45,815 bases of DNA, taken from positions 1 through 45,815 of the forward strand of contig JAQWNP010000009.1 of NCBI GenBank assembly GCA_029268515.1, read 5' to 3'. The first letter of the stretch is position 1. Each line of letters begins with the position of its first letter. This stretch comes from Phycisphaerales bacterium. GTDB lineage: Bacteria > Planctomycetota > Phycisphaerae > Phycisphaerales > SM1A02. Shown piece by piece: positions 4,531 through 12,157 of the stretch. The translations under genes and the position numbers were made by a program. Below the pieces are notes generated by a model. The model saw nothing but the letters and a program-made list of their open reading frames with translations, did no database searches and was not told the DNA's origin.

Positions 4531-5346
4531 CTAGACGGGGTCAAATATGTTCGTTGTGACGTTTCCATGATGTGCCACGAGAACGGAACCCGTTTCAATC
4601 GGCTCCCAGTGTTCGCTTATGTCATCAAGAGGCTCTGATAATATCAACATGCCATCTGATGATGCATTCTTTAGATCACCACATACTTCATGTAGCGCTT
4701 TCTCAGATCGGCTGTGATAGAGAGTCGGTGCCTCACCGTCTGCACAAAATCGTACAGCGATGATTCTTTGACCATCCGAAACAGACACGGTCATTCGGAA
4801 CGGCTCCTTAACCCCTGCTTTATTTCGAGCATCACAGACAGCCTTCGCCATGCCGTGCAATCCTCGAACAGGGTCATCCTCCAAACCATGGGTCAATGCC
4901 AGATAGAACATTGTCTCACTATCAGTGCATCCCAACATAAACGGATAGAACTCAGGATCAATCGAGAAGTCTAAATCACGCTTAATTTTCTCGAATTCCC
5001 CAATCGACCCATTATGTTGAAAAAGCCAACGACCATGCTTAAACGGATGACAGTTGGTTCGTTGAATTGGCGAAGACGTTGCTGCACGGACATGTGCGAA
5101 GAAAAGCTTTGTGCAAATCTGTTGGGAGAGCGCCCGTAAATTTAGGTCATGCCAAGCCGGCGTTGTATCACGAAAGATACCTGGTTCGGGTCGTCCATCA
5201 AACCAGCCAATACCGAATCCATCCCCGTTAGTCGCGTAAACAGATCGCTGCGCATTGATACTTTGATTAATAAGCGAATGCTCTGGCCGAACCAAAAGAG
5301 TATCCATAAAAATGGGTGATCCAATATAAGCCAGCCATCGACACAT
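4531..5346 (-). CDS. Class II glutamine amidotransferase (YafJ/EgtC-like)
   Basis: This 271-aa protein starts Met-Cys-Arg-Trp, leaving Cys2 as the N-terminal nucleophile after Met removal. Other Ntn-glutaminase landmarks are visible: NGDGFGIGW at 40-48, AHVRAAT at 84-90, NCHPF at 98-102, QHNGSI at 110-115 and TDSE at 141-144. The length matches stand-alone amidotransferases of the YafJ and EgtC kind, which hydrolyse a glutamine or gamma-glutamyl amide. No synthetase domain is attached. It is the first gene of a probable two-gene operon with the GadC-like antiporter downstream, 9 bp away. The catalytic class is clear; the natural substrate is unknown. Confidence 0.88.
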   Translation of the reverse strand: MCRWLAYIGSPIFMDTLLVRPEHSLINQSINAQRSVYATNGDGFGIGWFDGRPEPGIFRDTTPAWHDLNLRALSQQICTKLFFAHVRAATSSPIQRTNCHPFKHGRWLFQHNGSIGEFEKIKRDLDFSIDPEFYPFMLGCTDSETMFYLALTHGLEDDPVRGLHGMAKAVCDARNKAGVKEPFRMTVSVSDGQRIIAVRFCADGEAPTLYHSRSEKALHEVCGDLKNASSDGMLILSEPLDDISEHWEPIETGSVLVAHHGNVTTNIFDPV

Positions 5347-8214: not shown

Positions 8215-8577
8215 GGTCCAGCATCTCCAAATTAGGTTTCTAGGCTCATCGATGCTTCCATTGTCTGTGTTCTCGCTCCATGAGCGGCTATTTAGTGGTG
8301 TATTTCTGATTTTTCAAAAAGCACCATGCCCGAGCAAAAGAACGTCTCAATTGCGTTTTCGCAATTTCTAAGGGTTACATAGTCAATCTAATAGATCCTA
8401 TTGCTATGGAATAAGTTGTACGTAATCACAAGGAAGTGGGAGTACATATTTCATCTGAAGAAAGAGGGTGCCCAAGAGAGCGAGCTCATACAACCCTTTG
8501 GTCAATTCCAAGACACAGGTAGTAATTGGAATTCGTATTAGAAGGATTGGAAGGAGCTTGTAAAACAGGGAAAGAAA
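8215..8577. other. Divergent intergenic region, no gene seen
   Basis: 363 bp between the 208-aa gene (minus) and the first HTH regulator (plus). The only open frame over 60 codons (8171-8371) overlaps the 208-aa gene and has no protein-like features. The region presumably holds both promoters, but I could not pick a convincing -35/-10 pair or an operator palindrome. Confidence 0.45.
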
Positions 8578-9864
8578 GTGAGGTCACAATTGAGCGTAGA
8601 AATTAAAGATGAGACTAGGAAACATCGCCTGGAACGATTACTAGATCTTGCCCAGGCTTACAAGGGCTGGACTCGGAAAGAACTGGCCAAAGCACTTGGC
8701 CGCGATCCCGCTAATCTTGTACCAGCCAGCGGAAACCCAAAACTTGATTACGTTGTTGATCTAGCCGAAGTTCTAGACTGGCCAATTGGTGATGTTGCGG
8801 AAGTGTTGTTTACTCATGCCGAAATTACAACTCGTTCACAATCTAAAGGTGGCCAAAAAGATGAGTTCGAGAACTTCAAAGATTATCACCATGCGTTGTT
8901 TGAAGCTCAGAAACTCGGTGAGTATTCAGCAATTCTCACGTTAGCAGTTGAGGCCAAGCAAGTCGCTGAAGAACCTGACCAGCGTGCACTAGCTGCTCAC
9001 TACGAAGCCCTGGGTTGGGATGGCCTAGGCCGCTACCATCGTTCTCTCGAAGCTTCTCAAGACGGGCTGAATGAGCCTATCTCTGATATTGATCTACGTT
9101 TCGCACTTGAGACCGCGCTCGCCAATGCACACTACAGCCTTTGGCATCTCGCTGAGGCACGAGCGACCTCCGGCGAGATCATTACTTGGTACCGCCAGAA
9201 TCCAGCATCAACATCAACCGGTAAGTATGCAGAAGCACAAGCTGTCTATACACGAGGCCATGCTCTTCGAAGAATTGCTGGTGTCTCTCCATGTATGACC
9301 AAATTAGGCATCTCACGAAGCCGTGCTGATCTTGAACGAGCGCTCCGACTCTGGAAAGAACTTGCAGTGGAATACGATGATAGCTGCGACGGAATCGGCA
9401 ACATTTGCCATGCAGGTATTATCGAACTCGATGTCATGGATGAAAAGCGTATCGCTGAAGATGCCTTAGCTGAGATTTGCCGAGGTCTTGAGAGCGTCAT
9501 CGAACCCAATAAAATGCCCATTGGCAACTGGCTAGAGAGCTATGGGTGGTGGTGCGTCTTTGGTTGCAATATTGCTCTTCGACACTTGACCAAACAACGC
9601 GATGTCCAACATTACATGGCACTGTTCACCAACAAAGCTGATGAAATTGCTAATCGCCTTGGCAACTGGTCACTTCGGGAACGGGTTTTCACCATGCAAT
9701 TCCTAGGCCACCAACACTTTGTTGGCTGGGCGGGGCGTGAATTGCCTATGACCATCGACTCCGATGATATCCGCCTCATCGCTGGCACCATGGGGCGATT
9801 CCCAACCTTTAGACGTACTGGATGGAAAATTCTTAACACTGCTCATGTCATCAAAGACAAATGA
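8578..9864 (+). CDS. HTH regulator with helical-repeat (TPR-like) sensor region, paralogue 1
   Basis: A GTG start preceded by GGGAAAG gives 428 aa. Residues ~15-70 form a predicted Xre/Cro-like helix-turn-helix (LLDLAQAYKGWTRKELAKAL, then GNPKLDYVVDLAEVLDW). The rest is almost all alpha-helical, with repeating Ala/Leu/Tyr patterns (ALAAHYEALGWDGLGRYHRS) typical of TPR-type repeats. It aligns end to end by eye with the protein at 10877-12157: both share NPKLD, LDW, ESxGWxCV, LRER and DDxRLI..TM.RFP.FR near the C-terminus. The stop lies 14 bp before the start of the secreted protein gene, so the two form an operon. DNA binding is inferred from the HTH; the sensed signal is unknown. Confidence 0.72.
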   Translation: MRSQLSVEIKDETRKHRLERLLDLAQAYKGWTRKELAKALGRDPANLVPASGNPKLDYVVDLAEVLDWPIGDVAEVLFTHAEITTRSQSKGGQKDEFENFKDYHHALFEAQKLGEYSAILTLAVEAKQVAEEPDQRALAAHYEALGWDGLGRYHRSLEASQDGLNEPISDIDLRFALETALANAHYSLWHLAEARATSGEIITWYRQNPASTSTGKYAEAQAVYTRGHALRRIAGVSPCMTKLGISRSRADLERALRLWKELAVEYDDSCDGIGNICHAGIIELDVMDEKRIAEDALAEICRGLESVIEPNKMPIGNWLESYGWWCVFGCNIALRHLTKQRDVQHYMALFTNKADEIANRLGNWSLRERVFTMQFLGHQHFVGWAGRELPMTIDSDDIRLIAGTMGRFPTFRRTGWKILNTAHVIKDK

Positions 9865-9878
9865 AGGGAGGTAAGACC

Positions 9879-10493
9879 ATGAAATTGACTAAACTAACAA
9901 CTCTTTTAGTAACAACGGCAACAGTCTGCCTTTCTTGCAGTTTCGCGAGTGCTACGGGGCGAGGAAATACTATCCTTAGTGATGTGTACCTCTATCAGTA
10001 CGGAATAAAAATAGAACCCCGTGACACAAATTCTAATCCTACCGTGATGAGTTTAATGGCTGCTATTGGTGGCCTTCCACCATCTGCAAACATGAATTCA
10101 ATACTGAGCAATACAGTTGACACTGATCTGCTGAATGCCATAGGTGGGTTCAATAGCTTTGATTCAGGCAAACGCCCGAGCTACTTCTCTGGCCTTGGGC
10201 AAGCAACAAATTTGGCTATACCTGGTCAAGTGATGCTGCTACCCATCGATGTCAATGCTGATTACACCATCAGTTCTTGGGTTGCTTCAGACACGTTCTT
10301 TCCTGATATTGAGAGTCCAGCTAGTAACATCGATGCCTCTATCCTCAATCCAACGACGGTTGGATCGGGTATCAGTATGGATCATCATTCAGTTAGCTTG
10401 GATGATGTAAGCAGTAATGCTGTACCTGCCCCTGGTGGTATCGCAATCTTAATGGGAGCTCTTCTATGCGGCCGACGCCGACGGAGGGATTAA
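9879..10493 (+). CDS. Secreted protein with PAPG-type C-terminal sorting signal (PEP-CTERM-like)
   Basis: The ATG at 9879 is chosen because GGGAGGT lies just upstream; an earlier in-frame ATG (9861) overlaps the preceding stop. The 204-aa product has a classic signal peptide (MKLTKLTTLLVTTATVCLS, cleavage near ASA-TG). Its middle is Ser/Asn/Gly-rich with few charges, and the tail is PAPGG, a hydrophobic segment IAILMGALLCG and RRRRRD. That tail is the planctomycete form of PEP-CTERM sorting signals, processed by an exosortase-type enzyme. It is translationally close to the upstream HTH/TPR regulator. The mature function is unknown; a surface or matrix protein, or a precursor of a signal, are both possible. 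Confidence 0.75.
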   Translation: MKLTKLTTLLVTTATVCLSCSFASATGRGNTILSDVYLYQYGIKIEPRDTNSNPTVMSLMAAIGGLPPSANMNSILSNTVDTDLLNAIGGFNSFDSGKRPSYFSGLGQATNLAIPGQVMLLPIDVNADYTISSWVASDTFFPDIESPASNIDASILNPTTVGSGISMDHHSVSLDDVSSNAVPAPGGIAILMGALLCGRRRRRD

Positions 10494-10512
10494 TCCTCGA
10501 AAATTAGAGTAA

Positions 10513-10542
10513 GCCATCAGGCTTCGGCACCAGCCGGATGGC
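10513..10542 (+). terminator. Hairpin 20 bp after the secreted-protein gene, probable terminator
   Basis: GCCATC-A-GGCT pairs with AGCC-G-GATGGC around an eight-base loop. It is followed by CCTCTTATG, so the T-tract is weak. The position directly after a stop codon supports termination or 3'-end protection. Confidence 0.45.
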
Positions 10543-10636
10543 CCTCTTATGAGACCGTGATGTCCTTCAAAGCCTGTTTTAGCCATAAATTGGTTGCAAC
10601 AGAGGCTCTTGTGGGGCATCGCGGTTTTCATCATTT

Positions 10637-10837
10637 TTGCTTGAATCTCAATTCGGACCGAGTACCTTTGAATATGGCGATGGCCCTGCAAGGATCATCG
10701 CTGATGAGATTTGGCTGCCAAACTTGTGGCCAGATCCCGCATGCACCGTCCTTGTGGTGGGGGGCGACTGGCGTGCCATAACTTTTATGCTAGTTGATCA
10801 CGGTCAATGGGTCGCCTTGCCCTCATCTATGAGCTGA
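10637..10837 (+). CDS. Doubtful short ORF, 66 aa
   Basis: A TTG-started frame reads ESQFGPSTFEYGDGPARII then DEIWLPNLWPDPACTVLVVG, ending VALPSSMS. The composition is protein-like (Trp, Gly, Asp and a beta-type hydrophobic strand), but there is no ATG or GTG start and the frame opens only a little further upstream. It lies between the secreted-protein gene and the second regulator. It may be a small gene with a TTG start or a remnant; no family is recognised. Confidence 0.25.
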   Translation: MLESQFGPSTFEYGDGPARIIADEIWLPNLWPDPACTVLVVGGDWRAITFMLVDHGQWVALPSSMS

Positions 10838-10876
10838 GGGCGACGATCAAGCTGAAGTCCAACGAAGGACGAGGTT

Positions 10877-12157
10877 GTGGTGAACAATACGACGACTAAT
10901 CGTAGAGACCGCTTACACCAGCTCTTTGAACTGGCTCGCTCCTACCGCAACCTGACATTGAGCGAACTTGCCGCTCGAATGGACCGCAGCCCTTCTAACA
11001 TCCTACGCCAGGGCGACAACCCAAAGCTCGATCTCATCATTGGCTTAGCCAATTGCCTTGATTGGACAATAGATGAAGTGACTCGGTTTATCTGGAGTGG
11101 AAAATCCACCGCCAAGATTGATCATCAAGGCACCCCCGCTAGTTCCGGGCCTATAGCAAGTTTGTCATTTGCCAATCTCGAAAACAGGGCTCGTCAGGCG
11201 CGCGAGAAGGGGCGCCTGGGAGCTCTCATTGAGACGGTTGATCAAATGCAAAAATCAGCCAAGACGGTCAAGCAAAGAGCATCTGTTCTTCTCAGCCGTG
11301 CAATCATTGCCGCGGCGAGTGGCAATCCATCTCAACAGGAGCATGCTGGTCAACAACTGGTCATTGACGAGAGACTACCTCAAGAGTTTAAATTGATGGG
11401 ATTGGCACAAATTGCCCAAGCGAATCTATCACTTGGCCGCTTATCTGCCGCGAACGATCATGCCAAGGCTGTGATTCGGCACACCCAAGATCTTGTGTTT
11501 GATATCGACGATGAAGTGACCTGTGAAAAATATAGAGCCCGGGCAGCCGCCCAAGAAGTCAGAGGCCATCTTGCCTGCCGACAACTGAACCGCCCTATTG
11601 GACGTTGGAAGGTTAACACAGCTGCATGCCGACGTGATGCCTCTCAGGCCAGACGTTGGCTAGATGGAACATATGATGAAGTTCGCCCTGACCACATTAC
11701 CGCTTCTATTACTCGATGTAATGCTGCGTTAACTGAGCTGGATGTAGCACTTGGCAACATGCAAGCTGATGATGCTGTTGCGATGCTTCAGTCTCAAATT
11801 AGTGAGCAAGTACCTTTGCATCATGACCTCGTAGAAAGCCTTGGATGGGTGTGTGTTTATGGTGCTGACATTGCAATGCGATTTATGTCCCCGTCCCGCC
11901 AACAGCAATGTTCACTGGGCACGTTCTCAGAGAAGGGCTTTGAACTTGCTGACAGGATTGACGGATGGCAACTTCGAGAACGCCTTCTCACACTTGATTA
12001 CGAGGGCAATAAGATTCTGGAATCTGAGCAAAAAAAGAGAATCACCCGCATCATTGACAACGATGATGTACGCCTGATTAATTCAACGATGAGACGCTTT
12101 CCAAACTTTCGAAGCATCGGGCTCGATATATTGACAAATAGTGAACTGTCTTTTTGA
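10877..12157 (+). CDS. HTH regulator with helical-repeat (TPR-like) sensor region, paralogue 2
   Basis: A GTG start with GACGAGG upstream gives 426 aa. The N-terminal HTH (LFELARSYRNLTLSELAARM, then DNPKLDLIIGLANCLDW) matches that of the protein at 8578-9864, and so do the C-terminal signatures ESLGWVCVYG, LRERLL, DNDDVRLINSTM and RRFPNFR. The middle is helical and Ala-rich with repeat-like spacing (ANLSLGRLSAANDHAKAVI). The two proteins arose by duplication and have diverged widely. The gap of 383 bp from the secreted protein gene means it probably has its own promoter. No separate small secreted gene follows it. Confidence 0.72.
   Translation: MVNNTTTNRRDRLHQLFELARSYRNLTLSELAARMDRSPSNILRQGDNPKLDLIIGLANCLDWTIDEVTRFIWSGKSTAKIDHQGTPASSGPIASLSFANLENRARQAREKGRLGALIETVDQMQKSAKTVKQRASVLLSRAIIAAASGNPSQQEHAGQQLVIDERLPQEFKLMGLAQIAQANLSLGRLSAANDHAKAVIRHTQDLVFDIDDEVTCEKYRARAAAQEVRGHLACRQLNRPIGRWKVNTAACRRDASQARRWLDGTYDEVRPDHITASITRCNAALTELDVALGNMQADDAVAMLQSQISEQVPLHHDLVESLGWVCVYGADIAMRFMSPSRQQQCSLGTFSEKGFELADRIDGWQLRERLLTLDYEGNKILESEQKKRITRIIDNDDVRLINSTMRRFPNFRSIGLDILTNSELSF

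Follow-up and report, generated by a model that had tools for sequence, protein, structure and literature searches.

Peptide receptors of the RNPP type have been described from Bacillota and their mobile elements, and the mature peptides of the known systems lie at the C-terminal end of their propeptides. A large RNPP/RRNPP screen covered, according to the part of its text that is available, complete Firmicutes and virus genomes only (PMC10075063). Among the open-access titles and abstracts listed, none reported an RNPP/RRNPP-type or peptide-pheromone system in planctomycetes. Here we analyse a locus of a Phycisphaerales bacterium in a window of 45,815 nucleotides (nt) of contig JAQWNP010000009.1 (the window being the whole stretch analysed), in which two paralogous regulators, A and B, flank a gene for an exported-type protein, S. 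In its predicted fold, A combines a helix-turn-helix (HTH) region with tetratricopeptide repeat (TPR)-like helices. We put the chance that an RNPP-like receptor/ligand module exists in Phycisphaerae, and that A and S belong to it, at about even. The sequences support a regular pairing of regulator and partner, a short motif in the partners that is conserved at the protein level, and covariation of this motif with residues of the predicted TPR groove.

Pairing of regulator and exported-type partner

Of the genera sampled in one Phycisphaerales-like family, most have the regulator/partner pair (29 of 37 genomes). Together with 2 of 24 genomes of the same order, regulator homologues occur in 31 of 61 genomes, that of the window included. 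A class-wide sample yields matches in 53 of 397 genomes, 31 of them same-family; four of the 53 (G106, G179, G185 and G207) match weakly and over part of the model, and are probably only TPR-like. The same-family genomes G180 and G010 gave no family-profile match in this sample, and G028 has 23 matched places, some of which are pieces of one gene. From 182 relatives 80 named loci were retained, coming mostly from Phycisphaerae, Phycisphaerales or Planctomycetota metagenome assemblies, some under other planctomycete names and one titled Chitinophaga.

Altogether 129 distinct members were collected, 128 with at least 400 nt of downstream sequence (distinct only in the last 120 residues, some of them fragments, and with L161, one gene in two frames, counted twice). 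As partner we accepted a signal-like open reading frame (ORF) starting -60 to +120 nt from the regulator stop. Such an ORF lies directly downstream in 109 of the 128 members; among control ORFs from the same loci (at least 250 amino acids, aa) the figure is 70 of 488. "Signal-like" here means a hydrophobic segment called by a home-made rule, the same that selected the partners. Probable false calls are L083, L086 (a guanylate kinase-like ORF) and L087, and the rule overlooked the partners of L034 (first copy), L036, L070 and L120. The genes stand close together: 73 of the 109 gaps measure 0-25 nt, 29 are below 0, 4 fall at 26-45 nt and 3 are larger (at most 25 nt or overlapping in 102 pairs). 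A profile of one partner family has 10 matches in the 397 genomes, and all 10 lie directly behind a regulator by coordinates. The partners comprise tailed proteins, small ones near 100 aa, and long ones (340-554 aa), some of which end in dockerin-like sequence. An exosortase was matched in all 61 genomes and the importer marker PF00496 in 57 of them, both being permissive only.

Some loci show unusual arrangements. Two shortened regulators of G028 (L077 and L080) match the HTH and/or the last C-terminal part, with the TPR mostly or wholly missing, and still have an overlapping exported-type ORF downstream; at L080 there are three tandem partners with an identical C-terminal stretch and differing N-termini. 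In L055, L065, L086 and L043 the regulator locus is followed by an ORF that resembles guanylate kinase (SGPSGVGKTT).

Upstream of the regulators, inverted repeats were found in 8 of 95 cases (3.9 expected); this is near chance and therefore not a family feature. Promoter- and terminator-like sites are near chance as well. The 8-bp inverted repeat upstream of A (window 8504-8533) is unproven. In a freshwater clade a palindrome, CGGAC-N5-GTCCG, stands just upstream of the regulator start (L136, L139, L144, L146, L142, L157, L164 and L166), with paired changes in some (L157, GCAGGAC...GTCCTGC).

Partner motif and predicted groove residues

The pentapeptide H[TSN]xQ[DEG] occurs in 69 of the 109 partners, where 0.28 would be expected after shuffling. 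Its density is 77 occurrences in 17,473 partner residues, as against 8 of 830 other ORFs with 330,035 residues, and two of these eight are one overlooked partner in two copies of its locus. When 106 partners were clustered with motif, signal peptide and tail removed (no mutual BLASTP match, E 0.01), 32 of the 45 clusters contained it. Its position ranges from residue 34 to residue 88 (median 53; 35-61 in six partners of 340-554 aa); eight partners have it twice, and many that have no sorting tail keep it. Where 15 members of a single partner family are aligned, the invariant columns are M1, F57, M61, G66, W69, H71, T72, Q74 and E75; the motif stands at the heart of this conserved part. Variants follow the regulator clades (HTGQD, HTNQG, HSNQG, HTVQE, HSMQE). 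The codons vary synonymously (CAC/CAT; ACC/ACG/ACA/ACT; TCC/TCG/AGC; CAG/CAA), with serine encoded even by TCN as well as AGC, which argues for selection on the peptide and not on the DNA.

On the side of the regulators, the AlphaFold2 (AF2) model of A has a mean predicted local distance difference test score (pLDDT) of 90.4. It consists of HTH-region helices up to residue 78 (2-29, 33-40, 56-66 and 70-78), a loose linker, helix pairs over residues 100-385 and a conserved C-terminal cap; R42, P54, K55 and W68 of the HTH region are invariant or nearly so. Foldseek against the PDB gives PlcR-PapR7-DNA as the sole match with E <=0.001 (E 1.9e-4), and a second structure aligner lists Rap with CSF, Rap Phi3T, NprR and RapF at Z 17-18 and AimR at 15.5. 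The family profile matches designed TPR proteins, and Pfam TPR_2 is matched by 9 of 88 members (best E 0.0011), A of the window not being among them. The nine Pfam families listed for 88 relatives of A (E 0.01) include no RNPP family, and weak repeats only.

To describe covariation we used the core motif H[TSNV]xQ and 93 regulators with partners, a first set that excludes B copies, partner-less members, G028 paralogues, L086 and fragments. Glycine at column 145 (G145) is found in 75 of 75 regulators with a core-motif partner, against 5 of 18 without. No other of the 192 columns is as strongly associated with the partner motif, and the next ranks go to A107, D104 and N141. All four columns fall within the first helix of repeat 1 or of repeat 2 (residues 100-113 and 133-149). 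With TPR numbering anchored on G114 and G151, we take columns 104, 141 and 145 to be repeat positions 5, 5 and 9, which are ligand-facing. Conservation of N141, N180 and N331 is 92-99% over 71 motif-bearing members, a figure that describes conservation only. The TPR concave surface is formed mainly by helices A, and Asn227 of RapF is a conserved groove residue that holds the peptide backbone, according to the available portion of PMC3601957.

Held-out rows from genomes unused before show the same association. From 42 rows, 13 that are at least 95% identical to known ones and 8 without a usable partner were removed, and in the remaining 21 G145 is present in 6 of 6 with the motif and 4 of 15 without (one-sided p 0.004; 0.013 when five doubtful rows of these eight are retained). 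In a larger set with G028 restored, 81 of 82 core-motif regulators have G145; the lone exception is apparently L058, whose HVEQ fits the loose pattern only. Phylogeny-aware pairs were drawn from a tree built without columns 99-150 (125 rows, 12 label changes). Here G145 and the motif change in the same direction in 5.6 of 7 well-supported independent pairs and in the opposite direction in 0.0 (median p 0.03, range 0.016-0.375); a sign test on the first regulator set alone could not reach 0.05. The other columns follow with 4.2 pairs (107), 3.1 (104 and 141), 2.3 (198), 2.1 (142 and 317), 1.9 (276) and 1.6 (164), and the comparison positions 231, 252 and 283 reach 0.5-0.8. In these comparisons, whether the motif is present goes with a single predicted-groove residue, G145. 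Residue 141 differs by motif variant, being I with HSNQG, L with H[TS]EQG and H with HNEQG (two rows); a held-out HNEQG row (L216) has L, unlike the two earlier ones.

A group of partners in L222, L223 and L224 is only 60 aa long and has a hydrophobic C-terminal stretch (GWL...); the motif is absent here and G145 is kept.

What the regulators may read

In the mechanism that we propose, the first gene would encode a cytosolic HTH-TPR regulator and the second an exported protein, of which the segment H-[TS]-x-Q-[DEG], located at some distance after the signal peptide, would be the ligand read in the TPR groove. By the likeliest route the partner would be exported, and a motif-containing peptide would be released outside, re-imported and bound in the groove, so altering how the regulator binds DNA, after the pattern of PlcR-PapR and NprR-NprX. 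What we infer is the binding in the groove, the export, release and import, and the regulated genes; the shared five-residue tag appears to be what the receptor reads. The ligand could be an imported peptide, as in RNPP systems, or the precursor still inside the cell, and precursor sensing is a serious rival. A wider formulation is tentative and falls somewhat short of an even chance: each HTH-TPR regulator would read a five-residue address on the adjacent surface protein, with cargo being freely swapped and address and groove coevolving. Replacements of the address would then be clade-specific (GKRPSY, in the window), its loss would tend to go with loss of the groove, and some lineages would have a diverged, partner-less second regulator.

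The original prediction, made from the letters of the window alone, had compared the locus with RNPP-type systems and proposed self-sensing or surface-assembly control. It suggested looking for an HTH plus TPR superhelix, which is what the model of A gives, and for the same pair order in related genomes, which is kept in the 109 members with an exported-type ORF downstream. The RNPP-like layout stands as regards the adjacent pair, the exported-type partner, a TPR fold with PlcR as top solved match, and the shared, covarying motif. Self-sensing through a re-imported peptide is only a possibility here, and S of the window is without the family motif.

Several observations weigh against an RNPP-like module. 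The strict motif is missing from 40 of the 109 partners. Partners of closely related regulators (L095, L105, L112) share residues round the motif, and since partners of near-identical regulators were split apart, some of the 45 clusters are surely related by descent. G145 was chosen after the scan of 192 columns, the held-out rows include close relatives (L222-L224; L226, L227 and L230; L238-L241), and G145 is kept in 9 of 43 regulators with a partner lacking the core motif. Four regulators, all of one genus (L225, L228, L231 and L237, in G282, G133, G338 and G247), have the full groove consensus with a transporter-like ORF directly downstream, presumably of cation-efflux type, and no motif-bearing partner was found in the stretches taken around them. 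Most partners exceed known propeptides in length (the median is 147 aa and the maximum 554 aa; 8 of 109 have at most 100 aa), a VPAPG-like tail pattern is fitted by 46 of the 109, and PF00496 was not found in the module-bearing genomes G009 and G023 (88% and 91% complete). The PlcR match itself has template modelling (TM) scores of 0.34/0.49 and a root-mean-square deviation of 18 over 339 columns. Directly behind it Foldseek places eukaryotic TPR proteins (E 1.4e-3), the next matches being LGN and Rap (E 1.4e-3 to 2.4e-3). With the second aligner eukaryotic TPR proteins equal or exceed Rap and NprR (Z up to 21), and the 50 matches listed do not include PlcR. Because eukaryotic TPR proteins score as high, the fold alone does not single out peptide receptors. 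Finally, when a natural regulator-partner pair was read through its stop and modelled with AF2, the motif stayed unplaced (partner pLDDT about 30); only 6 of 51 rows held the partner, which makes this weak evidence either way.

Some of these points would be expected if the module were an export sensor without a pheromone, a reading that we consider unlikely but well worth weighing. The groove would then bind the motif of the unexported partner precursor in the cytosol; with Sec/exosortase capacity running short, precursor would accumulate and transcription of surface-protein or export genes would change, nothing being released or re-imported. The position of the motif fits, since at residues 34-88 it appears early in synthesis, and so do the mostly long and often tailed partners, the close or overlapping genes and the two module-bearing genomes in which PF00496 was not found. 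Doubling of the motif in eight partners and its clade-specific variants are, however, explained at least as well by diversification of a signal, and we know of no characterised system of such design with such an architecture.

We find it improbable that the locus is one for a surface protein with a dedicated regulator responding to another signal, the pentapeptide serving outside the cell in processing or attachment. The exosortase found in every genome means that tailed exported proteins have a sorting route, and the tail pattern of the 46 partners agrees with this. Moreover, only 12 of the 39 places with an HTNQD-coding pattern in the 61 genomes are regulator-adjacent by coordinates, and long open frames elsewhere carry the pattern too: L187/L201 (G036, two copies, dockerin-like end), L177, L192 and L194 (tail-like end). 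Among 30 such loci read, the non-adjacent ones are mostly short or odd frames; the reversed pattern gave 2 matches, but contains stop codons and is therefore a weak control. An extracellular role fits less well with covariation between the motif and predicted inner-helix residues of the regulator, held-out rows included, with the motif in partners that have no sorting tail, and with a partner family that in 397 genomes is found only behind the regulator. That the motif is a DNA or RNA element (an operator or structured mRNA) read by chance as a peptide is barely credible and was rejected on codon variation: in favour of such an element are its shortness and its place near the start of a gene that follows one for a DNA-binding protein, but its synonymous positions vary freely (two serine codon sets, the whole ACN set for threonine), its spacing from the gene start ranges over 50 codons, and upstream inverted repeats are near chance.

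The window locus and its closest known systems

Judged by its sequences, the pair in the window is a diverged case of the module: S is motif-less, A has no matching groove residues and B is partner-less. The partner in the same-genus genome G001 has HTAPG, and A has L145, L107, H141, Y142 and A180 in place of the G, A, N, R and N of motif-bearing relatives. S and the G001 partner are identical at 84 of 184 aligned positions, and FDSGKRPSYFSG of S aligns with FDQGKRPSYIFSG; the common FD[SQ]GKRPSY may be a replaced ligand segment. B is one of seven low-scoring, partner-less second regulators labelled 'B' (window, L032, L050, L062, L130, L140 and L155), each of which adjoins an A-type regulator with a motif-less partner. 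In the tree the B copies make up two groups on long branches, and B of the window groups with the second regulator of G001. The partner-less second regulators of L041 and L047 keep the groove consensus and stand beside a motif-bearing partner; a partner-less copy as such thus does not go with motif loss.

Motif-less partners adjoining a B-type regulator form a family in L050, L062, L130, L140 and L155. A recurring segment of their own (approximately ERWV..VPPWH) is present in L050, L130, L140 and L155 and was not seen in L062.

The features of the locus are collected in Table 1. The coordinates and the 14-bp gap between regulator and secreted protein in the original prediction were correct, as was its description of two paralogous regulators with DDxRLI and RFPxFR signatures around an exported protein: A and B share 28% identity over 425 columns (E 9e-45), both signatures being included in the alignment. 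Of the duplicated module that it envisaged, the duplication holds for the regulator and not for the module, B having no exported gene behind it. In the genome of the window (G000) no third copy was found, a search with protein A and the family profile both giving only A and B. S starts at ATG 9879, 14 nt past the stop of A; an in-frame ATG at 9861 overlaps this stop, and the ribosome site belongs to the 9879 start.

Table 1. Positions of the regulators, the exported partner and their parts in the window.
Feature	Position	Strand	Description and basis
Regulator A	8578-9864	+	428 aa, GTG start, N-terminal HTH and TPR-like superhelix (ORF, AF2 model)
HTH region of A, about residues 10-78	8605-8811	+	Named from model and sequence
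TPR-like helical-repeat domain of A, residues 100-385	8875-9732	+	Paired helices, pLDDT mostly >90
Residues 141-145 of A	8998-9012	+	H141, Y142, L145; motif-bearing relatives N141, R142, G145
Shine-Dalgarno-like GGGAGG before S	9866-9871	+	Sequence
S, exported-type partner	9879-10493	+	204 aa, signal-like N-terminus, VPAPG/poly-Arg tail, without H[TSN]xQ[DEG]
FDSGKRPSYFSG of S, candidate replacement ligand segment	10158-10193	+	Pairwise alignment with G001 partner
Sorting-tail-like C-terminus of S, VPAPGGIAILMGALLCGRRRRRD	10422-10490	+	ORF and sub-threshold tail-model matches
Regulator B, diverged paralogue of A	10877-12157	+	426 aa, no exported partner downstream

Against Pfam and NCBIfam nothing above cut-off was found for A, S or B. 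Sub-threshold HTH hits in Pfam are HTH_23 for A and Sigma70_r4 for B; the tail of S matches MYXO-CTERM (E 0.026, 14.9 of 20 bits), the PEP-CTERM subfamily NF038120 (E 0.03, 14.2 of 80 bits) and an LPXTG-type tail, all likewise below cut-off. Two PF09721 exosortase matches over cut-off lie elsewhere in the same genome. An ORF starting MCRWLAY, which we take to be class II glutamine amidotransferase-like, is found near the pair both in the window (4531-5346, minus strand) and in L006 (3467-4225), suggesting an old shared locus.

Compared with known systems, generic TPR proteins (LGN, APC subunits, MalT domain III) have the same superhelix of helix pairs, with Z scores at least those of Rap and NprR, but to our knowledge have no paired exported gene behind them and a different domain make-up. 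S resembles PEP-CTERM/exosortase substrates in its VP[AT]PG, hydrophobic stretch and arginine cluster at the C-terminus; it differs in scoring below the curated cut-offs, and more than half of the partners are without the tail pattern, many of them with the motif. From the RRNPP systems (PlcR-PapR, NprR-NprX, Rap-Phr, AimR-AimP) the module differs in its host, Phycisphaerae instead of Bacillota, in partners that are usually longer than 100 aa and often have a sorting-like tail, and in a motif that is internal and not at the C-terminal end. By the published RRNPP definition, as far as the available text gives it, receptors measure 250-500 aa (PMC10075063), a range that includes A and B (428 and 426 aa); genes are adjacent, as in 109 of 128 members, and propeptides measure 10-100 aa, against 204 aa for S. 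Sec export is represented here by the signal-like segment of the home-made rule, which 70 of 488 controls also pass, and neither A nor B matches a curated RRNPP family in Pfam or NCBIfam. As propeptide size and curated family both fail, we do not file the module as an RNPP member. What it shares with these systems, in so far as the sources at hand describe them, is adjacent genes, a TPR superhelix, an exported-type partner, an HTH in front as in PlcR and NprR, and a short conserved peptide segment that is sometimes repeated. If the reading is true, a switch that senses peptides or export, not described so far, would operate outside Gram-positive bacteria. The pentapeptide and the receptor residue can both be named, which opens the sensing of peptides or of export inside planctomycete cells to direct test.

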